Shown: positions 15,242-61,903 of the stretch, piece by piece | Layout of the letters: each line of letters begins with the position of its first letter | Numbering within the stretch: the stretch's first letter is position 1 | Source: Candidatus Ozemibacter sibiricus | GTDB lineage: Bacteria; Muiribacteriota; Ozemobacteria; Ozemobacterales; Ozemobacteraceae | Assembly (NCBI GenBank): GCA_003327425.1 | Contig: QOQW01000005.1 | Coordinates: 186,001 to 250,000, forward strand | Reading direction: 5' to 3' | Length of the DNA: 64,000 nt | Notes under the pieces: model-generated | Databases searched by the model: none | The model's input: the letters and a program-made list of their open reading frames with translations, nothing else | Told to the model about the DNA's origin: nothing | Translations under genes and position numbers: made by a program

Positions 15242-16375
15242 ATGGCCTCCCGAAAGAGCAGGATTCCGGTCTATACCATCGGGTTGCGGGCCAAAGGCCC
15301 GGCCGACAGTCATCTGGCCAAGATCGCGCGGCTGGCTGAGCGGATCGGCATGAAGAAGTTCCCCTGGCGCGACAAGCTGGTTGCCGTCAAGACCCATTTC
15401 GGCGAACGCGGCAATTCCGCCTTCCCGCGGCCCATCTATGTGCGGCCCCTGGTCGATCTGATCAAAGCGGGGGGCGGCAAGCCGTTCCTGGCCGAGACCG
15501 CCACGCTCTACACCGGCAGCCGCAGCAACGCCCCCGATCACATCGAAACCGCCCTCCGGCACGGGTTCGGCCCCGAGGTCACCGGCGCCCCCATCTTCAT
15601 CTGCGATGGCCTGACCGGTCGCGATCACCGGATGGTGAAGGTGGCCGGGCGGCACTATACCGAAGTATCGGTAGCGGCCGGCATCCACGAGGCCGATGCG
15701 CTGGTGGTGCTGTCCCATTTCAAGGGGCACGAGGTGACCGGCTTCGGCGGCGCCATCAAGAACCTGGGCATGGGCTGCTGTTCGCGGTCGGCCAAACTGG
15801 CCATGCATACCTCGATCCGGCCCTCCGTGCTCGAGAAGAAGTGCGTGCGGTGCGGCCGCTGTTTCGCCTGGTGCGCGGCGGGCGCCATCGGCCAGCAGAA
15901 GCCTGACGGGCCGGTGACGATCGATCCGGCGAAATGCCGCGGGTGCGGCGAATGCCTCGTCTCGTGCCGGGTCGGGGCCATCCGCATCAATTGGAGCGAA
16001 GATACGCGCGGGGTCACCGAAAAAATGGTCGAACACGCCTTCGCCGTGCATGCCCCCAAGGCTGGGGCGGCCTTCTACCTCAACATCCTGATCGATATCG
16101 TGCCGTTGTGCGATTGCTACGGTTTTTCCGATGCCCCGGTGGTTCCCGATATCGGCTTCGCCGCCTCGACCGACCCGGTCGCCCTCGACGCGGCCTGCCT
16201 CGATCTGGTCGAAGCCCAGATCGGGCTGGCCCAGAGCGCGTTGGGTCGGTCGGTGCCGGCCGACCGCTCGAAGTTCGCGCTGGTCCATCCTGAGCTGGAG
16301 ATCCGGGCCCAGCTCGAGCATGCGGCGGCCATCGGCTTCGGTTCGGTAGCGTATGAGCGGATCGCCCTCGACTGA
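15242..16375 (+). CDS. DUF362 protein with two 4Fe-4S clusters
   Basis: A 377-residue protein of the DUF362 family, whose members carry a ferredoxin-like insert and have no firmly known reaction. The N-terminal half has VAVKTHFGERGN and the SHFKGHEVTGFGGAIKNLG segment characteristic of the family. Two cysteine sets follow: CVRCGRCFAWC and CRGCGECLVSC, each of 4Fe-4S type, with a further CC pair in GMGCCSRS. The start at 15242 has AAAGGGG some eight bases upstream; a longer frame beginning at 15197 is rejected. No signal peptide is seen, so it is cytoplasmic. Its end overlaps the likely start of mutS. Confidence 0.88.
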   Translation: MASRKSRIPVYTIGLRAKGPADSHLAKIARLAERIGMKKFPWRDKLVAVKTHFGERGNSAFPRPIYVRPLVDLIKAGGGKPFLAETATLYTGSRSNAPDHIETALRHGFGPEVTGAPIFICDGLTGRDHRMVKVAGRHYTEVSVAAGIHEADALVVLSHFKGHEVTGFGGAIKNLGMGCCSRSAKLAMHTSIRPSVLEKKCVRCGRCFAWCAAGAIGQQKPDGPVTIDPAKCRGCGECLVSCRVGAIRINWSEDTRGVTEKMVEHAFAVHAPKAGAAFYLNILIDIVPLCDCYGFSDAPVVPDIGFAASTDPVALDAACLDLVEAQIGLAQSALGRSVPADRSKFALVHPELEIRAQLEHAAAIGFGSVAYERIALD

Positions 16376-19355
16376 TCGCGACCAGCCGATGGCCATGGCC
16401 GGGGGGGAGACCGGGGAACGCCCCCCCGCCGAAGCCTCCGCCCCCGCCGCCGAACCGGCAACGGCGGCGGCCGGCCTCGACGACAAGGGCCTGACCCCGC
16501 TTCTGCAGCAGTACAAAGACCTCAAGGCCCAGAACCCGCAGGCCATTCTGCTGTTCCGCTGCGGCGACTTCTATGAGACTTTCTTCGATGATGCCGTGGT
16601 GGCGGCGCGCGAGCTGCAGATCACCCTGACCGCCCGGGGCCGGACCGGCACCGGCCAGCCGGTGCCTCTGGCCGGTGTGCCGTACCACAGCGTGATGACC
16701 TATGTCGCGCGGTTGGTCCAGAAAGGCTTCACGGTCGCCATCTGCGAGCAGATGGAAGATCCCAAGCAGGCCAAGGGGCTGGTCAAGCGCGAGGTGGTGC
16801 GCATTTTGACGCCCGGTACCATCGCCGATCCGCAGTTGCTCGAGGAAAAGTCCAACAACTGGCTGACCGCCTTCGGACGTCGAGGAGAGCGATTCTGCCT
16901 GGCCGCCGTCGAGCTGTCGACCGGGGAAATGATCATCACCAGCGGCGACAAGGTCGAAATGGGCCTGCTGCCCGAGGAATTCACCCGCCTCTCGCCTCGC
17001 GAGGTGTTGTTGCTGGAAGGCGGAGATGACCCTCTCGAAGAGGGGGGGCGGTGCGGCGACCGTGGCCGACAGACCCGATCCAGCGGCCGAGATGCCGACG
17101 AACCTCCGGAAATTCCTGATGGGAGCGACCTTTCCGACGCCGGGGTGGGCGGGGGCGACCCCGCTGGCCCAATCGCGATCGGCGCCGCCGGGGCAGGGGC
17201 CAAGGCCGACCCCGGGGAGCCGGTCATCAGCGGCGCTGAACGAAGAGAATCGCGACCTGCTCCCTCTAGCCCCTCTTCCAGCGCCCCGTCGGGGCGAACG
17301 GGCGGGACCGGGCGGGCGGCCTGGGTGCCGCCGTGGCAGGCGCTGCGGCCCGAGGTGCATGTGCGCCGCGTGGGCGAGGCCGAGGCGGTCGAGGCGCTGG
17401 CGACGCTCTTTCCGCGCGAGCCGCGGGCGCGGTTCCTGGCCTTGCCGCCGCTCGAGCTGCGGGTGCTGGGCATCCTCGCCGAATATTTGCTCGATACCCA
17501 GAAATGCTCGCTGGGTCATCTGCGCTACCCGCAGCCGTACCGGCTGGGCGATGGCATGGTGCTCGACGAGGCCACGCTGCGCAATCTCGAGCTGCTGCCC
17601 GACGGCCGCGAACGCACCCTGGGCGGCACGCTGTTCGAAGTGGTCAACCGAACTCGCACCGCGATGGGCGCCCGGCTGCTGAAACGATGGCTGCTCAAGC
17701 CGTTGATTCAAGTCGCTCCCATACTCGAACGCCAGGAGCGGGTGGCGGCGTTGCATGCCGATCCGGTGCTGCTGGCCGAGGTGCGCGAGGCGTTGAAGGG
17801 CGTTCCCGATCTCGAACGGCTGCTGTCGCGCATCGTCCTGGGCAGTCGCAACCCGCGCGATGCGCAGGCGCTCGGTCTCGGACTGGCCCGGCTGCCGTTC
17901 TTGCATGAGCGTCTGAAGAATACGCCGCTGGCCGATGTCGCCGACGAACTCGCTCCCTTGCCCGATCTCGAAGGCCTCATCGCCAGAACTCTGCGAGAAT
18001 CGCTGCCGGCCGCCCTCACCGACGGCGGGGTCATCGCCGATGGGGTCGATCCGGCGCTCGATGAGCTGCGCGGGCTCCTGCGGGACGGCGACCGCTGGTT
18101 GGCGGCCTTCGAAGAGAAAGAAAGGGCCGCTACCGGCATCAAGACCTTGCGGGTGCGCAAGAACAACGTGTTCGGCTATTTCATCGAGATCTCGAAAGGC
18201 CTGGCCGACAAGGCGCCTGCGCACTACGTGCGCAAGCAGACCCTGACCACGGGCGAACGCTACATCACGGCCGAATTGAAAGAGTATGAGACCAAGGTGT
18301 TCTCGGCTCACGATCGCTCGATCGCCCTCGAAAAGGAGATCTACGAGCGGTTGGTGGAGCGGATTCGCGAGCAGATCCCGGCCATCCAGCGGGCGGCGGC
18401 CGGGCTGGCCCGCCTCGATGTGCTGGCCTCGCTGGCCTGGCTAGCCCAGGAGCGGCGGTTCGTGCGCCCGGTCATCGTCGAGGAGAACCGGCTCGAGATC
18501 AGGGGCGGGCGCCATCCCGTGGTCGAGGCCTTCCTGCCGGCCGGCGAATTCCACCCCAACGATACCATCCTCGATGCCGAACGGCGGCAGGCGATCATCA
18601 CCGGTCCCAACATGGCCGGCAAGTCGACCTACCTGCGGCAGACCGCTCTGCTGGTGCTGCTGGCCCAGATCGGCTCGTTCGTGCCGGCCGAGTCGGCGGT
18701 GATCGGCATCGTCGATCGCATCTTCACCCGGGTCGGGGCTTCCGACAACCTGATTCGGGGGCAGTCGACCTTCATGGTCGAGATGATGGAAACCTCGCTG
18801 ATCCTGAAGAATGCCACCGAACGCAGCCTGCTCATTCTCGACGAGATCGGGCGCGGTACCTCGACCTTCGACGGCCTGGCTCTGGCCTGGGCCATCCTCG
18901 AGCACATCAATCAGGTGACGCGGGCGCGCACCCTGTTCGCCACCCATTACCACGAGCTGACCGACCTGGTGCCGGTGCTGCCGCAGTTGTTCAATCTGAA
19001 CGTCGCGGTCCATCATGATGAGAAGTCGGGGGAAATGGTCTTCCTGCACGCCATCGAAGAGGGGCCGTCGAACAAATCCTACGGCATCGAAGTGGCTCGG
19101 CTGGCCGGGCTGCCGTCGGGGGTCATCGATCGCGCCCGTGAGATCCTGTTCGAACTCGAGAAGACCGAGCAGGACGAAGTGGGGCGGGTCACGCGGGCGG
19201 TACGGCGTCCGCCGCAGGCCAAGCCCCAGCAGTTGTCGCTGTTCGCCCCGCAGATGCTGCTGGCCGAGACGGTGCGGGCCATCGACGTGAACAACCTGAC
19301 GCCGCTCGAGGCGCTGAACCTGCTGGCCCGGCTGAAGGACATGGCGAATGGCTGA
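16353..19355 (+). CDS. mutS: DNA mismatch repair protein MutS, with a low-complexity insertion
   Basis: Recognises mismatches and signals repair through its ATPase. Up to 1000 residues, well above the usual 850-880. The mismatch-contacting Phe-x-Glu motif is in GDFYETF (near residue 72), the P-loop is GPNMAGKST starting at residue 751, and LILDEIGRGTSTFDGLA is the Walker B/signature region. The excess length comes from a Gly/Ala/Pro/Ser-rich insertion at about residues 223-326 within the connector domain, and an Ala-rich N-terminal leader of about 40 residues. The start is uncertain: ATG 16353 lies within the end of the DUF362 gene and ATG 16389 is an alternative; neither has a clear ribosome-binding site. 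Confidence 0.96.
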   Translation: MSGSPSTDRDQPMAMAGGETGERPPAEASAPAAEPATAAAGLDDKGLTPLLQQYKDLKAQNPQAILLFRCGDFYETFFDDAVVAARELQITLTARGRTGTGQPVPLAGVPYHSVMTYVARLVQKGFTVAICEQMEDPKQAKGLVKREVVRILTPGTIADPQLLEEKSNNWLTAFGRRGERFCLAAVELSTGEMIITSGDKVEMGLLPEEFTRLSPREVLLLEGGDDPLEEGGRCGDRGRQTRSSGRDADEPPEIPDGSDLSDAGVGGGDPAGPIAIGAAGAGAKADPGEPVISGAERRESRPAPSSPSSSAPSGRTGGTGRAAWVPPWQALRPEVHVRRVGEAEAVEALATLFPREPRARFLALPPLELRVLGILAEYLLDTQKCSLGHLRYPQPYRLGDGMVLDEATLRNLELLPDGRERTLGGTLFEVVNRTRTAMGARLLKRWLLKPLIQVAPILERQERVAALHADPVLLAEVREALKGVPDLERLLSRIVLGSRNPRDAQALGLGLARLPFLHERLKNTPLADVADELAPLPDLEGLIARTLRESLPAALTDGGVIADGVDPALDELRGLLRDGDRWLAAFEEKERAATGIKTLRVRKNNVFGYFIEISKGLADKAPAHYVRKQTLTTGERYITAELKEYETKVFSAHDRSIALEKEIYERLVERIREQIPAIQRAAAGLARLDVLASLAWLAQERRFVRPVIVEENRLEIRGGRHPVVEAFLPAGEFHPNDTILDAERRQAIITGPNMAGKSTYLRQTALLVLLAQIGSFVPAESAVIGIVDRIFTRVGASDNLIRGQSTFMVEMMETSLILKNATERSLLILDEIGRGTSTFDGLALAWAILEHINQVTRARTLFATHYHELTDLVPVLPQLFNLNVAVHHDEKSGEMVFLHAIEEGPSNKSYGIEVARLAGLPSGVIDRAREILFELEKTEQDEVGRVTRAVRRPPQAKPQQLSLFAPQMLLAETVRAIDVNNLTPLEALNLLARLKDMANG

Positions 19356-45019: not shown

Positions 45020-46027
45020 ATGAAGATCGCCGTCGATGTCATGGGGGGCGACTTCGCTCCCCGCGAGCTGGTCCTCGGAGCGCAGGAATATCTCAAGACC
45101 GGAACGGCCGGTCTGATCCTGGTCGGGCGCGAGAGCGAGATCCGGCAGATCCTGCCTGAGCTGCCGGCCAATTGCGAGATCGCCGATACCCCCGAGTTCG
45201 TCGAGATGGGGGAGACTCCGACCGTCGCTCTACGCAAGAAGAAGAATGCGTCGGTGGCCGTGGCGGCCCGTCTGGTGAAGCAGAACAAGGCGGCCGCCTT
45301 CCTGTCGGCTGGCAGCACGGGGGCGCAGCTGGCGGCCTGTCTGCTCGAGATCGGGCGCATTCCCGGGGTCGAGCGCCCGCCCATTTCGGTGCTGCTGCCG
45401 ACCGCTCGCGAGCATGGGGTGCTGGTCTGCGACGTCGGCGCCAATGTCGACTGCCGCCCCCTCCATCTGCTGCAGTTCGCGTTGATGGGTTCGGCCTACT
45501 ACGAAGCCATCTGTCGCACCCCCCGGCCGCGGGTGGGCCTGCTGAACGTCGGTTCCGAACCCGGCAAGGGCAATGAGCAGGTCAAAGCGGCCTATGAGCT
45601 GCTGGCCAAAGCCCCGATCAATTTCATCGGCAACATCGAGCCCGACCACATGTATGCCGGGGAAGCCCATGTCGTGGTCTGCGACGGGTTCGTCGGCAAC
45701 ATCCTGCTGAAGGCCAGCGAGGGCGTGGCCGAGATGATCATGAACCCGCTCAAGCAGGTCATCGCCCAAGCCGGCCTGCCACCGGCCGTCGCCGGGCAGT
45801 TGGCCACCCAGTTGCGTCGCTACCAGCCCGACGCCCCCGAATACAGCGGGGCCCCGCTGCTGGGCATCGCCGGCGGAGCCATCGTCTGCCATGGCAAGTC
45901 GAAGGCCCGGGTCATCGCCCATGCGCTGCGCCTGGCCGTCGACTACGCCCAGACCGACGTCATCGGGACCATCGCCCAGCAGGTCGCCCGAGCGGGCCTC
46001 GCCGGCACCCCGGACAGAGCCCGGTGA
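45020..46027 (+). CDS. plsX: Phosphate acyltransferase PlsX
   Basis: Makes acyl-phosphate from acyl-ACP for phospholipid synthesis. The 335-residue peripheral membrane enzyme has the start MKIAVDVMGGDFAPRELV, FLSAGSTGAQLA, VCDVGANVDC, LLNVGSEPGKGNEQVK and VVCDGFVGNILLKASEG, all strongly conserved. The ribosome-binding site is weak; the gene lies 14 bases after rpmF and may be coupled to it. fabH, which usually follows plsX, is missing; fabK is next. Confidence 0.97.
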   Translation: MKIAVDVMGGDFAPRELVLGAQEYLKTGTAGLILVGRESEIRQILPELPANCEIADTPEFVEMGETPTVALRKKKNASVAVAARLVKQNKAAAFLSAGSTGAQLAACLLEIGRIPGVERPPISVLLPTAREHGVLVCDVGANVDCRPLHLLQFALMGSAYYEAICRTPRPRVGLLNVGSEPGKGNEQVKAAYELLAKAPINFIGNIEPDHMYAGEAHVVVCDGFVGNILLKASEGVAEMIMNPLKQVIAQAGLPPAVAGQLATQLRRYQPDAPEYSGAPLLGIAGGAIVCHGKSKARVIAHALRLAVDYAQTDVIGTIAQQVARAGLAGTPDRAR

Positions 46028-49597: not shown

Positions 49598-50551
49598 GTG
49601 AAGATCCTGCCGCGGCTGGTCATCGGCAACCTGCGTCCCCGCTTTCCGATCATTCAGGGGGGGATGGCTATCCGCGTGTCGACAGGGCGTCTGGCCGGGG
49701 CGGTCGCCCGCGAGGGCGGCATCGGCCTGATCGCCGGATCGGGCATGCAGCCCGACGAGCTGCGTCAGGAGATCCGGCTCGCCCGCAGCATCGCCAACGG
49801 CGGCTATATCGGGGTCAACACCCTGGTCGCGGCCACCGAGTTCATGAAAGTGATGGAAACGGCGGTTGACGAGGGGATCGACGTGCTGGTGGCGGGAGCC
49901 GGCTTCTCGCGCGATCTGCTTGCCCTCGGCCAGCGAGCCGGGGTACCGGTGGTGCCGATCGTCTCGACCGCTCGCCTGGCGGTGCTGGCCGAACAGCTGG
50001 GCGCGGCCGCCGTGGTCGTCGAAGGCAAGGAAGCCGGGGGACATCTGGGCACCACCAAATCATCGCGTGTGCTCTACCCGCTGGTCAAAGCGGCGGTGAA
50101 GATTCCCGTGCTGATCGCCGGAGGGATCGCCGACCGCGACGACCTGCTCGAAGTGCTGCGCATGAATGTCGATGGCGTGCAGATCGGCACCCGCTTCGCG
50201 GCCAGCCTCGAAAGCAACGCGGCTCCCGCCTTCAAGGAGCGCTACCTGCAAGCGCGCGAAGGAGACGTGTTCAAGATCCACAGCCCGGTCGGGCTGCCGG
50301 GCAATGCGCTGTCGACGCCGTTCTCCGATCGCATCGCCCAGGGGCCCATCCCGGTCGAGCGCTGCGACGGCTGTCTCAAGCGGTGTTCCCGCATCTTCTG
50401 CATCGTTCGGGCGCTCACCGAAGCGAAGGACGGCCACCTCGACCGGGGGCTGGTCTTCGCCGGCGAGCATGTCTACAAGATCAAGGAGATCCTGTCGGTG
50501 GCCGAGATCTTCCACCGGTTCTTCGACGGGCTCGAGTTCAAGGACGCGTGA
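49598..50551 (+). CDS. Nitronate monooxygenase/FabK-like flavin oxidoreductase
   Basis: A 317-residue TIM-barrel FMN protein related to 2-nitropropane dioxygenase and FabK: FPIIQGGMAIRVSTG, VVEGKEAGGHLG, VLIAGGIADRDDL, and GVQIGTRFAAS. The C-terminal segment has CDGCLKRCSRIFC, a Cys-rich motif seen in the clostridial-type members and not in FabK. The start is GTG 49598 with GGAG about 12 bases upstream. Its location between acpP and fabF implies a fatty-acid role, perhaps a second enoyl or acyl reductase or an unsaturation function, but this is inference. Confidence 0.85.
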   Translation: MKILPRLVIGNLRPRFPIIQGGMAIRVSTGRLAGAVAREGGIGLIAGSGMQPDELRQEIRLARSIANGGYIGVNTLVAATEFMKVMETAVDEGIDVLVAGAGFSRDLLALGQRAGVPVVPIVSTARLAVLAEQLGAAAVVVEGKEAGGHLGTTKSSRVLYPLVKAAVKIPVLIAGGIADRDDLLEVLRMNVDGVQIGTRFAASLESNAAPAFKERYLQAREGDVFKIHSPVGLPGNALSTPFSDRIAQGPIPVERCDGCLKRCSRIFCIVRALTEAKDGHLDRGLVFAGEHVYKIKEILSVAEIFHRFFDGLEFKDA

Positions 50552-50624
50552 CCCGCGGTCCCCCTCCGGGGGGGGGCCGGCCGGCGCGCCGATCACCACG
50601 ATCACCACCAGGAGGCCATCACCA

Positions 50625-51857
50625 ATGAACAGGGTGTTCGTCACCGGCCTGGGCGCTGTCACGCCCATCGGCATCGGCATCGAAGAGTTCGCGGCCGGTC
50701 TGCGCGCCGGCCGCAGCGGCGTCGGGCCCATCACCTCCTTCGATGCCAGCCAGCATTCCGTCAAGATCGCGGCCGAGGTCAAGGGGTTCGATCCGAGCCC
50801 GTACATCGCGAAGAAAGAGATCCGGCGCCATGATCGGTATTCCCAGTTCGCCATGGCCGCCTCGCACATGGCCCTCCAGCAGGCGCGGCTCGAGCCGGGC
50901 ACCTTCGATCCGCGGCGGGTCGGGGTCATCTTCTCCACCGGCATCGGCGGCATCCAGACCTTCGAAGCCGAGCACGACGTGATCCGGGGCCAGGGCCCGG
51001 GGCGGGTCAGCCCCTTCCTGGTGCCGATGATGATCTGCAATATCGCTTCGGGCTACATCGCCATGGCCCATGGCTTCAAAGGGCCGAACTTCTGCGTGGT
51101 TTCGGCCTGCGCGTCGGGCCTGCACGGCATGGGCGAAGCCTACCTCAAGCTGGCCCACGGCCTGATCGACATCTGCGTGACCGGGGGCGCCGAGGCGGCC
51201 ATCACGCCCCTGACCGTCGCCGGGTTCGCCCAGATGAAGGCGCTGTCGACCCGCAATGACGCTCCCGAGAAGGCGTCTCGCCCCTTCGATGCCGACCGGG
51301 ACGGCTTCGTCATGGGCGAGGGCGCCGGCGCCCTGATCTTCGAGACGGAAGCCAGCATGCAACGGCGCGGCGTCACGCCGCTGGCCGAGGTCATCGGCTA
51401 CGGGGCCAGCGCCGATGCCTACCACCTGACCGCCCCCGAGCCCAACGGCGAGGGCGCTTTCCAGGCCATGTCCGAGGCCATCGCCTTCCGGCAGACCCCG
51501 CCGACCACCTTCAACTACGTCAACTGCCACGGCACCTCGACCCCGCTCGGCGACGTGGCCGAGATTCTCGCCATCAAGCGGGTCTTCGGCGATCATGCGA
51601 AATCGCTCATGGTCAATGCCACCAAGTCGATGATCGGGCATTTGCTGGGCGCGGCCGGCGCCGTCGGGGCCGTTGCCACCGTGCTGCAGATCTCGCGCGG
51701 GTTCGTGCATCCCACCATCAATCTCGATCGCTGCGACGAGCGGATCGATCTCGATTGCGTGCCGCACACCGCGCGCGAAGCCCGCATCGAGGCCGCGCTG
51801 GTCAACTCGTTCGGGTTCGGCGGCCAGAATGCCTGTCTCGCCTTCCGCCGGGTCTGA
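50625..51857 (+). CDS. fabF: 3-oxoacyl-[acyl-carrier-protein] synthase II
   Basis: Condensing enzyme for chain elongation; 410 residues. The catalytic triad appears as Cys162 in VVSACASG, His in NCHGTSTPLGD, and His in KSMIGHLLGAAG. FVTGLGAVTPIG starts the protein. AGGAGG lies nine bases before ATG 50625; a longer frame into the previous gene is rejected. It ends the second lipid transcript, with a terminator 30 bases after the stop. Confidence 0.97.
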   Translation: MNRVFVTGLGAVTPIGIGIEEFAAGLRAGRSGVGPITSFDASQHSVKIAAEVKGFDPSPYIAKKEIRRHDRYSQFAMAASHMALQQARLEPGTFDPRRVGVIFSTGIGGIQTFEAEHDVIRGQGPGRVSPFLVPMMICNIASGYIAMAHGFKGPNFCVVSACASGLHGMGEAYLKLAHGLIDICVTGGAEAAITPLTVAGFAQMKALSTRNDAPEKASRPFDADRDGFVMGEGAGALIFETEASMQRRGVTPLAEVIGYGASADAYHLTAPEPNGEGAFQAMSEAIAFRQTPPTTFNYVNCHGTSTPLGDVAEILAIKRVFGDHAKSLMVNATKSMIGHLLGAAGAVGAVATVLQISRGFVHPTINLDRCDERIDLDCVPHTAREARIEAALVNSFGFGGQNACLAFRRV

Positions 51858-51887: not shown

Positions 51888-51928
51888 ACCCCCGCCGTCG
51901 CCTATTCCCAACCGGCGGGGGTTGTTTT
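51888..51928 (+). terminator. Terminator of the fab cluster
   Basis: A ten-base-pair stem (51888-51897 with 51913-51922), 15-base loop, followed by TGTTTTAT. Its loop contains the -35 of the following promoter. Confidence 0.75.
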
Positions 51929-51933
51929 ATAAT
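51905..51933 (+). promoter_or_regulatory. Candidate promoter of spoVS
   Basis: TTCCCA (51905-51910) and the perfect TATAAT (51928-51933) are 17 bases apart; the start lies about 45 bases before spoVS. Confidence 0.6.
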
Positions 51934-51983
51934 GGAAGCAGAGGGACGGTTTCCTCCCACAGAAACCCGAAGAGAGGCTACGC

Positions 51984-52247
51984 ATGGAAATCCTCCGAGT
52001 CGCATCATCATCCAACCCCAAGTCCGTGGCGGGCGCCATCGCGGCGGTTCTCGAGCACGACACCCGGGTCGAGCTGCTGGCCGTCGGGGCCGGGGCCGTC
52101 AACCAGACGGTCAAGGCCATCGCCGTCACGCGTGGCTACGTCGCTCCCAAAGGCATCGAGCTGGTCACCATCATTGCTTTCGCCAAGATCGAAATTGACG
52201 GAAACGAAAAAACCGCCATCAAGTTCATCGTCGAAGCCCATCACTGA
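51984..52247 (+). CDS. spoVS: SpoVS-family protein
   Basis: An 87-residue Alba-like small protein. MEILRVASSSNPKSVAGAIA, AVGAGAVNQTVKAIAVTRG, and the C-terminal KTAIKFIVEAHH match SpoVS over its full length. SpoVS supports sporulation in Bacillus but homologues occur in non-sporulating phyla (Thermotogae, Deinococcus and others), so no sporulation claim is made. AGAGAGG precedes ATG 51984. Confidence 0.93.
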   Translation: MEILRVASSSNPKSVAGAIAAVLEHDTRVELLAVGAGAVNQTVKAIAVTRGYVAPKGIELVTIIAFAKIEIDGNEKTAIKFIVEAHH

Positions 52248-52299
52248 AGCCCTCTTCGGGGCGACACCGCCGTCGGCGGAGCGCGGGGCGGCCGGCGGG

Positions 52300-54075
52300 G
52301 TGGCGGGGCGGCCCCCCGGGCCGGCGTCGGGCGGCTCCCATTGGTGGCGGCCGGTCGGGTGGATGATGCTGGCGGTCTTCTCCCTGGGCCCATGGTTCCT
52401 GCCAGCTCCCGCCGATCGGGCCGGGTTCGAGGTGCCTGGCCCGGCGAACCATCAAGAAGAGGCCGGCCAGCCGGAAGAACGGATTGGTCTGGCCGGGGTC
52501 GCGTCTCCATCGGGTGGCAGTGGGAGCCTGGGCGGCGTGCGGGGCCAGCGACCCGCGCGCAACCGGTCGGGCCTCTGGCGGCCTGCGCCATGGGCGGCCG
52601 AGGCGGCCGAAATCGCCAGCTCCAAGATCCCCGAGCTGAAGAAGCGATTGCAAGATGATCCCACCGACCGCGAGGCGCTGCTGGCCCTGGCCCTGGAATA
52701 CAGTCTCGAGCGGCAGTATGACAAAGCGGTCGAGACCTACTTCGCCCTGCTGAGGATCGACCCCAATAATTTCCATGCCTACAACAATCTTGGTATTTTG
52801 TACAAGAAGGCCGGCCAGTATCGCGACAGTCTGTACTGCTACCAGCAGGCCCAGAAGATCGATCCCAACTCCTACTGGGTGCCCTACAACATGGGGCTGG
52901 CCTACGAGGCGATGGGCCGCATGCAGGAGGCCCGCGAAGCCTACGGCCGGGCGCTCTCGCTCAACCCTGATTTCACCCTGGCGTTGCAGCGACTGCGCGA
53001 GCTGTCCGAGGAGGCGGGCGCGGTCAAGCCGCTGCCCAAGCCGCCCGGAGCCCAGATCTACCTCGCCGATGGGCCAGACGGGCAGCCCCGGCTCGTGGGC
53101 GGGAGCGGCGCCGCCGCCCCCGCCGGCGGGCCGGCTCCTTCTGGAACGCCCGCGGGTGCGGCGGGGGGCGGGAAACCGGCCGCGCCTTCACCTGCGGCTG
53201 CTGTCGTGGCCGAAAAGCCGCCCGCCGAAAAGCCGTCGACCGGAGCGGGGCGGCCGGCGGTCGCCAAGCCCAAGCCCGGGCATGGCTTGCGCACCGCCCG
53301 CACCGGCCCCGGCGCCGCGCTCTTCAACCAGGCCATGGACGCGCTCGAACGCGATGACCTGCCCAAGGCCATCGAGTTCTACGTGCGGTGCGTGCTGACC
53401 GAACGCGATTTCCTGGCCGAACCCGAGAACGGGCTGATCGCCAAGGGGCTCGCCCTGCTGCGCGATCGGCCCAACATCATGAAGGACGGCCTCTTCTACC
53501 GCGGCTTCTTCACCGCCATCACCGGCAACCTGGCCGGCGCGGTGAACGATCTCAAGATCTACCTCGAGCAAGGCCCCGAGCAGAAGGTCATGGAGACCGT
53601 CTTCCTCGAGGAGGCCCATCGCCTGGTCGCCCGCTACGAACGCGAGGTCGCCGAGCTCGAGGCCCTCAAGGCCAAACAAGCCGCGGAAGCGGCGGCGCTG
53701 GCCGAGGCGCGGGCGGCGGCGGCGCGGGCCGCCTCGGCCACCGCTACCTTCACGCCGCGTCTCGACGATGTCACCCTCAAGCAGATGGATGTCGATGCGA
53801 TCATCGACGAGGCCAACCGCCTGTCGCGCGACGCGCGCATCCTCGATGCCATCGCGGTCCTCAAGGTGGGCCTCGAGAAGGACCCCGACAATCTGACCCT
53901 TCTGATGGCCATGGCCAACGCCTATACCGACCTGATGTTCCTCAAGGGCGACAACGAGGCCGGCCGCATGGCCCGCGAGCTGTTCGCCCGCGTGGTGACC
54001 CAGGCTCCGCCCGATGCCAAAGAGCACAAGCTCGCCCAGAGCTTCATCGAGGAACTCGACAACCGGTTGAAGTGA
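52300..54075 (+). CDS. Membrane-anchored or exported TPR protein
   Basis: About 591 residues. A hydrophobic segment near the start (MMLAVFSLGPWFLPAPA) serves as anchor or signal; then a disordered stretch, a TPR block (about 115-220; YNNLGILYKKAGQYRDSLYCYQQAQKIDP), a Pro/Ala/Gly-rich linker (about 250-330), a second helical/TPR region, an Ala-rich coiled coil, and a final TPR-like unit. The start is uncertain: GTG 52300 gives an Arg-containing head before the hydrophobic segment, while ATG 52363 would begin within it. No function recognised. It lies about 50 bases after spoVS on the same strand. Confidence 0.75.
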   Translation: MAGRPPGPASGGSHWWRPVGWMMLAVFSLGPWFLPAPADRAGFEVPGPANHQEEAGQPEERIGLAGVASPSGGSGSLGGVRGQRPARNRSGLWRPAPWAAEAAEIASSKIPELKKRLQDDPTDREALLALALEYSLERQYDKAVETYFALLRIDPNNFHAYNNLGILYKKAGQYRDSLYCYQQAQKIDPNSYWVPYNMGLAYEAMGRMQEAREAYGRALSLNPDFTLALQRLRELSEEAGAVKPLPKPPGAQIYLADGPDGQPRLVGGSGAAAPAGGPAPSGTPAGAAGGGKPAAPSPAAAVVAEKPPAEKPSTGAGRPAVAKPKPGHGLRTARTGPGAALFNQAMDALERDDLPKAIEFYVRCVLTERDFLAEPENGLIAKGLALLRDRPNIMKDGLFYRGFFTAITGNLAGAVNDLKIYLEQGPEQKVMETVFLEEAHRLVARYEREVAELEALKAKQAAEAAALAEARAAAARAASATATFTPRLDDVTLKQMDVDAIIDEANRLSRDARILDAIAVLKVGLEKDPDNLTLLMAMANAYTDLMFLKGDNEAGRMARELFARVVTQAPPDAKEHKLAQSFIEELDNRLK

Positions 54076-59064: not shown

Positions 59065-59577
59065 ATGCCAGATCTACCATCGGCAGATTGGCCCAAACCC
59101 GTGACGGAAAATACCCGATGGTTGATAGCGGGGTCGGGTCGGATGGGTCATCACGCTGCCGACCGTGGGCACGCGAGCCAGGCTTGGCCGGTCGCCACCA
59201 GGGCGCCTGGCGGCGTCCGGCTGACCGTTGGTTGAGGCCGCGCGTCGCGGCCCCCGCTTTCTTTCCTGGTCCTGGTTTTCGCAGCCGTGTCGCGCAGGAA
59301 TCGAAGCGACGAGAGGTTGCGAGTTTCGCTTTTCGGCGCGGCGGATGGCCGACCGCTTGCCAGCCTTCGGTGCGGTGCTCTGCCCCGCCTCGCCCCTCGG
59401 CCTATCAAACGCATGAAGCCGACCAGGGCGGAGGCAAGCCGGCTGGTTTCAGGGCTGGCGGCAGATCGGCCGCGTCGTTCTTCCCTGGGAGTCGGGCGGG
59501 GGAGCGGTCGGATCATGGGTGCGGGGAAATGGAAAATCGGACGATGTATGAGGGAGCGCCGATCTGGAGGAGGAACC
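59065..59577. other. Divergent intergenic region before the ion-channel gene
   Basis: About 510 bases with no gene called. A long plus-strand frame runs in from 59287 in the frame of the channel gene but lacks a start signal. A GGCCGCG-CGT-CGCGGCC hairpin is at 59236-59252. No promoter stands out. Confidence 0.5.
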
Positions 59578-60903
59578 GTGGGCAAGTTGGTGCGAAGAGG
59601 GGTGTTCGTAGGGCTGGCCTGTCTGGTCTGGGCGATGGGCGGGGGGGGCCTGATGTCGAAAGTGGTGGCTCAGGCGGCCGGGCAGCCAGCGGCGGCCCTT
59701 GCCTCGGCCCCGACGATGGAGATACTGCTGCCGTCGGGGCCCGACGCTCGTGCCGGGCTCGAACCTTCTTCCGAAGCCCAGGGAGAAGGCCGGCCCTTGT
59801 CAAATGAAGATCTGAAGCTCGAAGCAGGACCCGAAGGGGCGGGCGAGCCCGCCCGCCACGAGCCGGCGACTCGGCGTTCTCCCGTCAGCGGTTCTGTTCC
59901 GTTGGGTGAACCCATGGCGGCGGGGCGCTCTGGTCGGACGGGGCCAGTGGCAGCGACTGCTTCTTCCCAACCATCAGAAGCCGCTGGTGCCGCCGCGGTG
60001 GCGAGCGGGCCGTTGACTGTGCAGATCGGGCTGTATGTGCTCGATCTGGCCCACCTCGACCTGAAAGAGAGCAGCTTCTTCGCCGACTTCTACATCTGGT
60101 ACAAATGGCGCGACCGGCCCGGCCAGGAGTGGAACCCCAGCAACATCGAGTTCATGAACGGGACCATCGAAATGGCGACGCCGCTGGCGACCGACACGTT
60201 CGGCGAGGTGCGGTACGCGTCGCAACGCATCAAGGGGCGGTTCCGGGGGCGGTTCGATCTGCGGGCCTACCCGTTCGACCGGCAGCGGCTGCCCATCGTC
60301 ATCGAAGACAGCTCGATGCCGGCGAGCCGATTGGTGTTCGAACCCGACCCCAATAATACCCGCATCGGTCGCTGGATCGAAGCGGGCGTGCAGGTTCCCG
60401 ACTGGAAGGTGGCCGGAGCGCGCGTCTACACCGATCAGCATGTCTATGACACCGACTTCGGCGACAGCTACACTTCGTCCGACACCCGGACCATCTACCA
60501 CCGCTTCAATTTCGAGATCCGGCTGGAGCGGCTGTTCGTGCCGCACCTGATCAAGTTCATCATTCCGTTGCTGGTCATCGCCGGCATGGCCTACCTGGTC
60601 TTCTGGATCAACGCCAGCGAGTTCGAGGCGCAGTGCGGCATCTGCGTCACCGCCCTGCTGACCGCCGTGGCGCTCCACATCTCCCAGGCCGATGCCCTGC
60701 CGGCGGTGGGGTATCTGGTGATTTCCGACAAGATCTTCATCGTTTTCTATGTCTTCATCTTCACGGCGCTCGCTCAGACCGTCGTGGCCAACAACCACGC
60801 CAAGCGTGGGCGCATCCGGGTCGCCATGGCCCTCGATGAATTCTTCCGGTGGGCCTACCCGCTCGGGCTGCTGTTCTTCTGCGTGCTGGCCATGGCCTTC
60901 TGA
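59578..60903 (+). CDS. Pentameric ligand-gated ion channel homologue (Cys-loop superfamily)
   Basis: A 441-residue membrane protein of the prokaryotic pLGIC family. Order: signal peptide (about 1-34), an Ala/Pro/Ser-rich region (35-140), the beta-sandwich ligand-binding domain with AYPFDRQRLPIVIEDS (the Pro-loop), and four transmembrane helices: M1 LIKFIIPLLVIAGMAYLVFWI, M2 with CVTALLTAVALHIS, M3 KIFIVFYVFIFTALAQTVVA, and M4 YPLGLLFFCVLAMAF at the very end. The start is GTG 59578 with GGAGGAGG just upstream. As in other bacterial members the extracellular Cys pair is absent. The ligand is not predictable. It stands before a Uma2 gene, with an intergenic element between. Confidence 0.88.
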   Translation: MGKLVRRGVFVGLACLVWAMGGGGLMSKVVAQAAGQPAAALASAPTMEILLPSGPDARAGLEPSSEAQGEGRPLSNEDLKLEAGPEGAGEPARHEPATRRSPVSGSVPLGEPMAAGRSGRTGPVAATASSQPSEAAGAAAVASGPLTVQIGLYVLDLAHLDLKESSFFADFYIWYKWRDRPGQEWNPSNIEFMNGTIEMATPLATDTFGEVRYASQRIKGRFRGRFDLRAYPFDRQRLPIVIEDSSMPASRLVFEPDPNNTRIGRWIEAGVQVPDWKVAGARVYTDQHVYDTDFGDSYTSSDTRTIYHRFNFEIRLERLFVPHLIKFIIPLLVIAGMAYLVFWINASEFEAQCGICVTALLTAVALHISQADALPAVGYLVISDKIFIVFYVFIFTALAQTVVANNHAKRGRIRVAMALDEFFRWAYPLGLLFFCVLAMAF

Positions 60904-61057: not shown

Positions 61058-61207
61058 GGTGCTCGGCTGGTGGCGGGCGTTCTGCCTGAATTGGCGTTGG
61101 CTTGGAGGGGGGCGTGCGCTCGGTTGCTGGGGTCGAGGAGCCGGTGCTAGACTATGAGCGGGTGGCTCGACGGCAGGGTCGAGCGCCGCCAGCTTGAGGA
61201 GGGAGAG

Positions 61208-61903
61208 ATGTCCGAACCGCGTCGAGCCTTGCCGACCACGTCCTTCACCTACGGGGATTACCTCGTCTGGCCCAGCGACGAACGCTGGGAATTGATCGAT
61301 GGAGAGGCCTTCGACATGTCGGCCGCTCCCTCGCTCGATCATCAGGAAATGCTGGGCGAGCTGGGCGCACAATTGCGCACGTTCCTTCGTGGGAAATCCT
61401 GCCGGGTCTTTCTCGCGCCAGATGTCATCCTGCCGCGAGGCGACGAGGCTGATGCCGCGGTGCGAACCGTGGTGCGGCCCGACCTCGCCGTGGTGTGCGA
61501 TCCCGCCAAGATGGATGGCAAACGGATTCGGGGCGCTCCTGATCTGGTCATCGAGATCCTTTCCCCGGCCACGGCTTCGCATGATTGCCTGCGCAAGCGG
61601 CGGGTCTACGAGAAGGCCGGCGTGCGCGAGTTCTGGCTGGTGCATCCGGTCGACCGCATTGTCACCGTGTTTCGTCGCACCGGCCAGAACGGCTTCGGTC
61701 CGCCCGATTACTACGATGCCGATTCGAAGGTGCCGGTCTCGGTCGTGCCCGGCCTGGAGGTCGACCTGTCGTTGCTCTTTCCGCCGTTGATCCAGGAAGT
61801 GCGCGAAAGCCCGCGTCAATATGGGAAGCCGCCGACTCCGACCGACGAAGACGAGCCGTCCGCTCGCCGTGCTTCCCGGCGCGCGTCGCGTTCCCGGCGC
61901 TGA
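61208..61903 (+). CDS. Uma2-family (DUF820) protein
   Basis: A 231-residue paralogue of the Uma2 protein at 21728-22351: ERWELIDGEAFDM, VVRPDLAVVCDPAKM, GAPDLVIEILSPATASHD, REFWLVHPVDRIVTVF. Restriction-endonuclease-like fold; function in the cell unknown. It differs by a basic Arg/Ser-rich tail (SARRASRRASRSRR) that could bind nucleic acid. GGAGGGAG lies before ATG 61208. Confidence 0.87.
   Translation: MSEPRRALPTTSFTYGDYLVWPSDERWELIDGEAFDMSAAPSLDHQEMLGELGAQLRTFLRGKSCRVFLAPDVILPRGDEADAAVRTVVRPDLAVVCDPAKMDGKRIRGAPDLVIEILSPATASHDCLRKRRVYEKAGVREFWLVHPVDRIVTVFRRTGQNGFGPPDYYDADSKVPVSVVPGLEVDLSLLFPPLIQEVRESPRQYGKPPTPTDEDEPSARRASRRASRSRR

Follow-up and report, generated by a model that had tools for sequence, protein, structure and literature searches.

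The window, the whole stretch of DNA analysed here, comprises 64,000 nucleotides of Candidatus Ozemibacter sibiricus, whose genome amounts to 5.68 Mb in 58 contigs. It carries an intact open reading frame of 441 codons with a GTG start and a TGA stop, preceded by a ribosome-binding site, GGAGGAGG, and the parts of the gene and of its product are collected in Table 1. By its sequence and its modelled fold, the product is a standard bacterial pentameric ligand-gated ion channel (pLGIC). No RNA elements were detected in the window by Rfam at the gathering threshold or by ARAGORN.

Table 1. Positions of the channel gene and of its parts in the window.
Feature	Positions	Strand	Basis
Ribosome-binding site	59566..59573	+	read from sequence; GTG start 4 bases on
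pLGIC gene	59578..60903	+	ORF, Pfam, PDB sequence searches
Signal peptide, residues 1-34	59578..59679	+	boundary by eye; model helices 2-21 and 25-33
Disordered Ala/Pro/Ser/Gly-rich head, residues 35-144	59680..60009	+	composition, pLDDT
Extracellular (periplasmic) beta-sandwich ligand-binding domain, residues 145-318	60010..60531	+	model, fold comparison
Y172 = ELIC Tyr38 (loop D)	60091..60093	+	ungapped alignment
E191 = ELIC Glu77	60148..60150	+	alignment
Pro-loop YPFD, residues 231-234	60268..60279	+	alignment A2
E243 = ELIC Glu131 (loop B)	60304..60306	+	alignments
Y307 = ELIC Phe188 (187 in the numbering of the 2011 paper; loop C)	60496..60498	+	alignments
M1, residues 320-343, kink proline P330	60535..60606	+	model, alignment A2
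M2 pore helix, residues 349-371	60622..60690	+	model
E350 at -2' = GLIC E222	60625..60627	+	alignments
CGIC: C353 at 1', C356 at 4'	60634..60645	+	alignments
M3, residues 382-409	60721..60804	+	model
M4, residues 413-440	60814..60897	+	model

The pLGIC identity, proposed in the sequence-only reading together with a clear Pro-loop and four clear transmembrane helices, is borne out on all three counts: Pfam, sequence searches of the PDB and fold comparison of an AlphaFold model agree on it, and the profile search, which could have placed the protein outside the family, favours pLGIC. The membrane-domain profile PF02932 (Neur_chan_memb) reaches 44.4 bits, well above its cut-off of 28.1. The ligand-binding domain alone fails in Pfam, as PF02931 (Neur_chan_LBD) scores 18.5 bits, under a cut-off of 26 that is a detection threshold and no defining trait of pLGICs; the likely cause of the low score is a shortened beta2-beta3 segment. 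The NCBIfam models LIC (3.6e-20) and LGIC_1 (1.4e-16) also match, both with scores far under the model cut-offs. Among PDB sequences, phmmer matched a GLIC-GABA-A chimera (2.2e-18), wild-type GLIC (3eam; 6.7e-14) and also ELIC, and a profile of the family matched wild-type GLIC at 7.8e-23. The AlphaFold model, made with the 47-row alignment A2, has a mean pLDDT of 77.1, with 246 of its 441 residues at 90 or above, and its core consists of ten strands and four membrane helices, the M3-M4 linker being only three residues long. Foldseek gave an E value of 3e-24 against known pLGIC chains and VIA-align gave Z scores of 24.6-25.8 over residues 141-441 for GLIC, GluCl, GlyR and GABA-A chains, and all rows shown by the two programs are pLGICs.

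Alignment A2 was drawn from 80 ORF matches in 79 loci, eight of which were removed manually (fragments, near-duplicates, one locus containing an unread base, and some just to thin the set); it holds 46 of the 72 remaining references, namely the top 20 and every second of the rest, and reaches 47 rows with the window protein. P232, D234, W276, R318 and P330 are kept in all 46 relatives. The Pro-loop proline and its F/YPxD motif are given as absolutely conserved in pLGICs in Table 1 of Jaiteh et al. (2016, PMC4795631). The beta9 tryptophan (W276), the pre-M1 arginine (R318), the M1 proline (P330) and the M2-M3 proline (P375) are all present, the last at a position where only 23 of the 46 relatives have proline. 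The cysteine pair that flanks the Pro-loop in metazoan Cys-loop receptors is absent from the protein sequence, in which the only cysteines beyond the signal peptide are C353, C356 and those in M4.

The segment from F167 to N194 is 28 residues long, and its length is 23-29 in every one of the 47 rows of A2, whereas the corresponding segment of GLIC, counted on the alignment, has 44. The missing part sits between beta2 and the loop-A motif. Judged from the alignment, the shortening is a property of the whole aligned group, including the channels fused to a binding protein, and not of this gene. Loss of the loop-A W-x-P, which a gap in the HMMER alignment had suggested, is ruled out, as EWNPSNIEFMN keeps W185 and P187, with a loop-A register that is uncertain in that W185 stands one column off GLIC W72 in one alignment. 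A literature search found no publication title on a shortening of beta2-beta3, although such a paper may still exist.

It is in the pore that the sequence-only reading has to be corrected. It had found no identifiable glutamate at the usual selectivity position, and it missed the one in FEAQCGICVTALL because the helix was quoted only from CVTALL on. M2 reads F349 E350 A351 Q352 C353 G354 I355 C356 V357 T358 A359 L360 L361, and HMMER pairs seFEAQCGIC of the family with tSYEANVTLV of GLIC, so that E350 falls opposite GLIC E222 at -2' in an ungapped alignment. From E350 (-2') to P375 (23') there is no gap against GLIC, and the further pairs are Q352 with N224, T358 with S230, L361 with I233, A365 with A237, I368 with I240, and P375 with P247, in the customary prime numbering of GLIC. 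Among the 46 relatives in A2, the -2' position is acidic in 41 (Glu in 29, Asp in 12), the rest having Asn (4) or Gly (1), and L361 at 9' is Leu in all 46. By the account of Jaiteh et al. (PMC4795631), Leu occupies M2 9' in 75% and a basic residue M2 0' in 79%, the latter being frequent and non-defining. The basic 0' residue is the sole residue of the superfamily motif that is not kept here, Q352 taking its place; pLGIC membership is still allowed, because GLIC itself has N224 there. ELIC differs in carrying Glu at -1' and Arg at 0', against Glu at -2' and Gln at 0' in the window protein. From its sequence the channel is probably cation-selective, although Jaiteh et al. (PMC4795631) warn that pre-M2 residues are in general no predictor of selectivity in prokaryotes.

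The putative agonist pocket resembles that of ELIC, the primary-amine-gated channel of Erwinia/Dickeya. As described in PMC3119659, bromopropylamine bound to ELIC has its amino group near Glu77 and Glu131, and none of the principal-side residues studied by mutation to alanine, these two included, left a mutant that responded to cysteamine. Both glutamates are kept in the alignment as E191 and E243, Tyr38 is kept as Y172, Phe188 is replaced by Y307, these aromatic residues forming walls of the pocket, and loop A reads IEFMN where ELIC has LEFIN. The aromatic box is, however, incomplete: Phe133 and Asn103 of ELIC are both Ser in the window protein (S245 and S215), and the partner of Tyr175 is unsure, being F294 in one alignment and T292 in another. 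Because S245 replaces Phe133, we liken the protein to ELIC and do not file it as an orthologue. On these residues, the channel is probably amine-gated.

Tasneem et al. (2004, PMC549065) described bacterial pLGICs that carry a periplasmic binding protein type I domain as a fusion partner. Such channels share with the window protein the shortened beta2-beta3 segment and an M2 consensus of FEAxVxIQVTALLSAVAL, but they carry Peripla_BP_6, have Gln or Arg at the E243 position, and form a clade separated from the stand-alone channels with 100/100 support. Peripla_BP_6 was found in 26 of the 28 ORFs scanned (27 of the fused group and one stand-alone paralogue, L034), two more rows of the fused group being truncated at contig ends or by their frames (L097, L107); the window protein has no Pfam match to a periplasmic-binding-protein domain at E values up to 1. 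E243 is Glu in 17/17 stand-alone rows and in 0/29 rows of the fused group, and F294 is likewise invariant in the 17 and absent from the 29. With a single split on the tree, the contrast of 17 against 29 at E243 counts as one event and not as 46, and the position of GLIC in that tree is untrustworthy (branch 3.62). The pattern fits, and does not prove, an arrangement in which the canonical pocket would be the sensing site of stand-alone channels and the added domain that of fused ones.

The long Ala/Pro/Ser-rich disordered head that had been read between the signal peptide and the first strand is real and covers about 110 residues. It contains 59% Ala/Pro/Ser/Gly, against 24% in the core, and pLDDT is below 50 at residues 30-107, 109-122 and 124-136; low pLDDT with few aligned rows is alone a weak sign of disorder, and the composition agrees with it. 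Three other ORFs of the window (16353-19355, 50166-51857 and 51922-54075) contain 80-residue stretches with 64-71% Ala/Pro/Ser/Gly (0.65, 0.64 and 0.71, against 0.59 for the head, in a crude set of 43 window ORFs), a weak control because at least some of them may be shadow frames and not genes. The possibility that the head is non-coding or results from a wrong start is disfavoured by the signal peptide and by the in-frame heads of the orthologues, while GC3, at 0.64 in the head and 0.89 in the core, counts against uniform coding pressure.

All three genus-level orthologues have heads. Identity to the nearest orthologue (G002) is 37/77 in the head and 278/297 in the core, and to the G001 orthologue 27/90 and 229/297. 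Against G002, the core has a dN of 0.04 and a dS of 0.56, and the head a dN of 0.57 and a dS of 2.05, both of them saturated and alignment-dependent; no head dS was computable against G001. The G002 copy lies at a contig end and its alignment to the window begins only 85 bases in, so that its signal peptide falls outside the part compared. The spacing from the hydrophobic signal stretch to the first strand is 103 residues in the G001 orthologue and 43 in the G001 paralogue. Two distant Riflebacteria pLGICs have 98 and 118 residues there, and five proteins of the sister genus, as well as one from a further genus, have 4-9. In this survey, the automatic value of 237 for the window protein was discarded, as it stems from a spurious hydrophobic stretch ahead of the start, and three intended loci gave no pattern match or no sensible value (L106). 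Heads were thus gained or lost more than once. By sequence comparison, the head is recent, fast-evolving and lineage-specific. Additions at the N terminus of bacterial pLGICs have been on record since 2004 (PMC549065), and DeCLIC, compared here by its description and unaligned, is likewise a pLGIC with an N-terminal addition and Leu at 9', although its addition consists of two folded jelly-roll lobes and not of a disordered stretch; the aligned GLIC chains have no such head. Since sister-genus orthologues lack a head and N-terminal additions were already known, the head is no marker of a new channel type, and it is real and unremarkable.

Overall, the reading that we favour, with some reserve, is that the gene encodes a subunit of an inner-membrane, cation-selective, probably amine-gated homopentamer, as suggested by sequence and model. 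A homopentamer is proposed because only one pLGIC was detected in the source genome, by protein search and by PF02932 (a PF02931 search of that genome gave no match, but it gave none in any control genome either). A small primary amine or similar cation would bind at the subunit interface beneath loop C, with E191 and E243 holding its amino group, and the Pro-loop/M2-M3 interface would pass binding on to the gate at Leu 9', while the ring of E350 would give the pore its cation selectivity. The head is probably a periplasmic tether or bristle under weak constraint rather than a ligand-binding domain.

In the likeliest of the alternatives, though still a rather unlikely one, the same kind of channel would be gated by something other than an amine, either by protons as in GLIC (Gloeobacter violaceus) or, like DeCLIC, by a divalent ion, and the acidic pocket would be where protons or metal bind. 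Carboxylates are abundant in the pocket (E191, E243, D244), and of the wild-type channels GLIC matches best by sequence and has one of the closest folds (6hz0 over residues 141-441: Z 24.9, rmsd 2.6, 23% identity). However, GLIC has R77 and I131 where the window protein has the two glutamates, and E181 in place of Y307, so that the pattern is that of ELIC. Redox tuning of the amine-opened pore, in which dithiol/disulfide or metal exchange at the CxxC would couple a periplasmic signal to the cytoplasmic redox state, is very unlikely. The motif does sit where the pore helix starts on the cytoplasmic side, and it occurs as C-[G/A]-I-C in 10/10 proteins of the close Riflebacteria clade (ten proteins from nine genomes) and in 0/11 of the other Riflebacteria rows aligned; its conservation alone shows no redox role, because many of its neighbours in the helix are equally invariant.

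We give a slightly smaller chance again to the head being a sensor, that is, a ligand- or partner-binding region that replaces the periplasmic-binding-protein domain of the fused relatives. Peripla_BP_6 stands at the same end of those relatives, and heads are present in the three orthologues of the genus, but the nearly continuous low pLDDT, the poor identity of the head beside that of the core, and the six orthologues of sister genera with almost nothing at this place all speak against such a function. Least likely of all is that the gene is decaying or its product does not conduct. A relative in G009 is indeed broken into short frames, whereas the window ORF is intact with a ribosome site, the core has the low dN beside dS given above, and the superfamily motif residues are all kept but the basic 0'. 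For the favoured amine-gated channel, the presence of the selectivity glutamate removes the claim that would make the channel odd, and the ELIC-like acidic pocket suggests a testable ligand class and makes this Riflebacteria channel a further, if modest, test case; the head contributes little. A biological role was known for no pLGIC of a unicellular organism, as put in Jaiteh et al. (2016, PMC4795631).

In the phylum, 21 of the 39 genomes searched contain a pLGIC match. The gene neighbourhood is kept within the genus, where it comprises a divergent TPR protein, a Uma2 protein, a UPF0047 protein and a YgfK-like oxidoreductase. That of the sister genus is different, with a BtpA protein, one protein that matches nothing in Pfam, a deaminase and an Smr protein. 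A chemical-sensing operon was considered and rejected, as the neighbours in neither genus point to a ligand. The Uma2-family gene lies directly downstream of the channel gene at 61154-61903, and two stretches homologous to it stand around the channel at locus L030 of G001. In the sister genus, a BtpA-family gene is next downstream in all five loci (L032, L033, L035, L036 and L037; called by homology for all five and by Pfam on one), and its start lies within about 15 bases of the channel stop in the four loci read. Literature searches for pLGICs with Planctomycetes and for Riflebacteria with ion channels found no paper. In addition, pLGIC-like sequence in short frames at 45395-45648 of G009 contig 84 (L129/L135) is apparently a decaying gene. 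Finally, a long Riflebacteria pLGIC relative (L026, on contig 1 of G017) has a Cache-type N-terminal domain, and the phylum thus has several pLGIC architectures.
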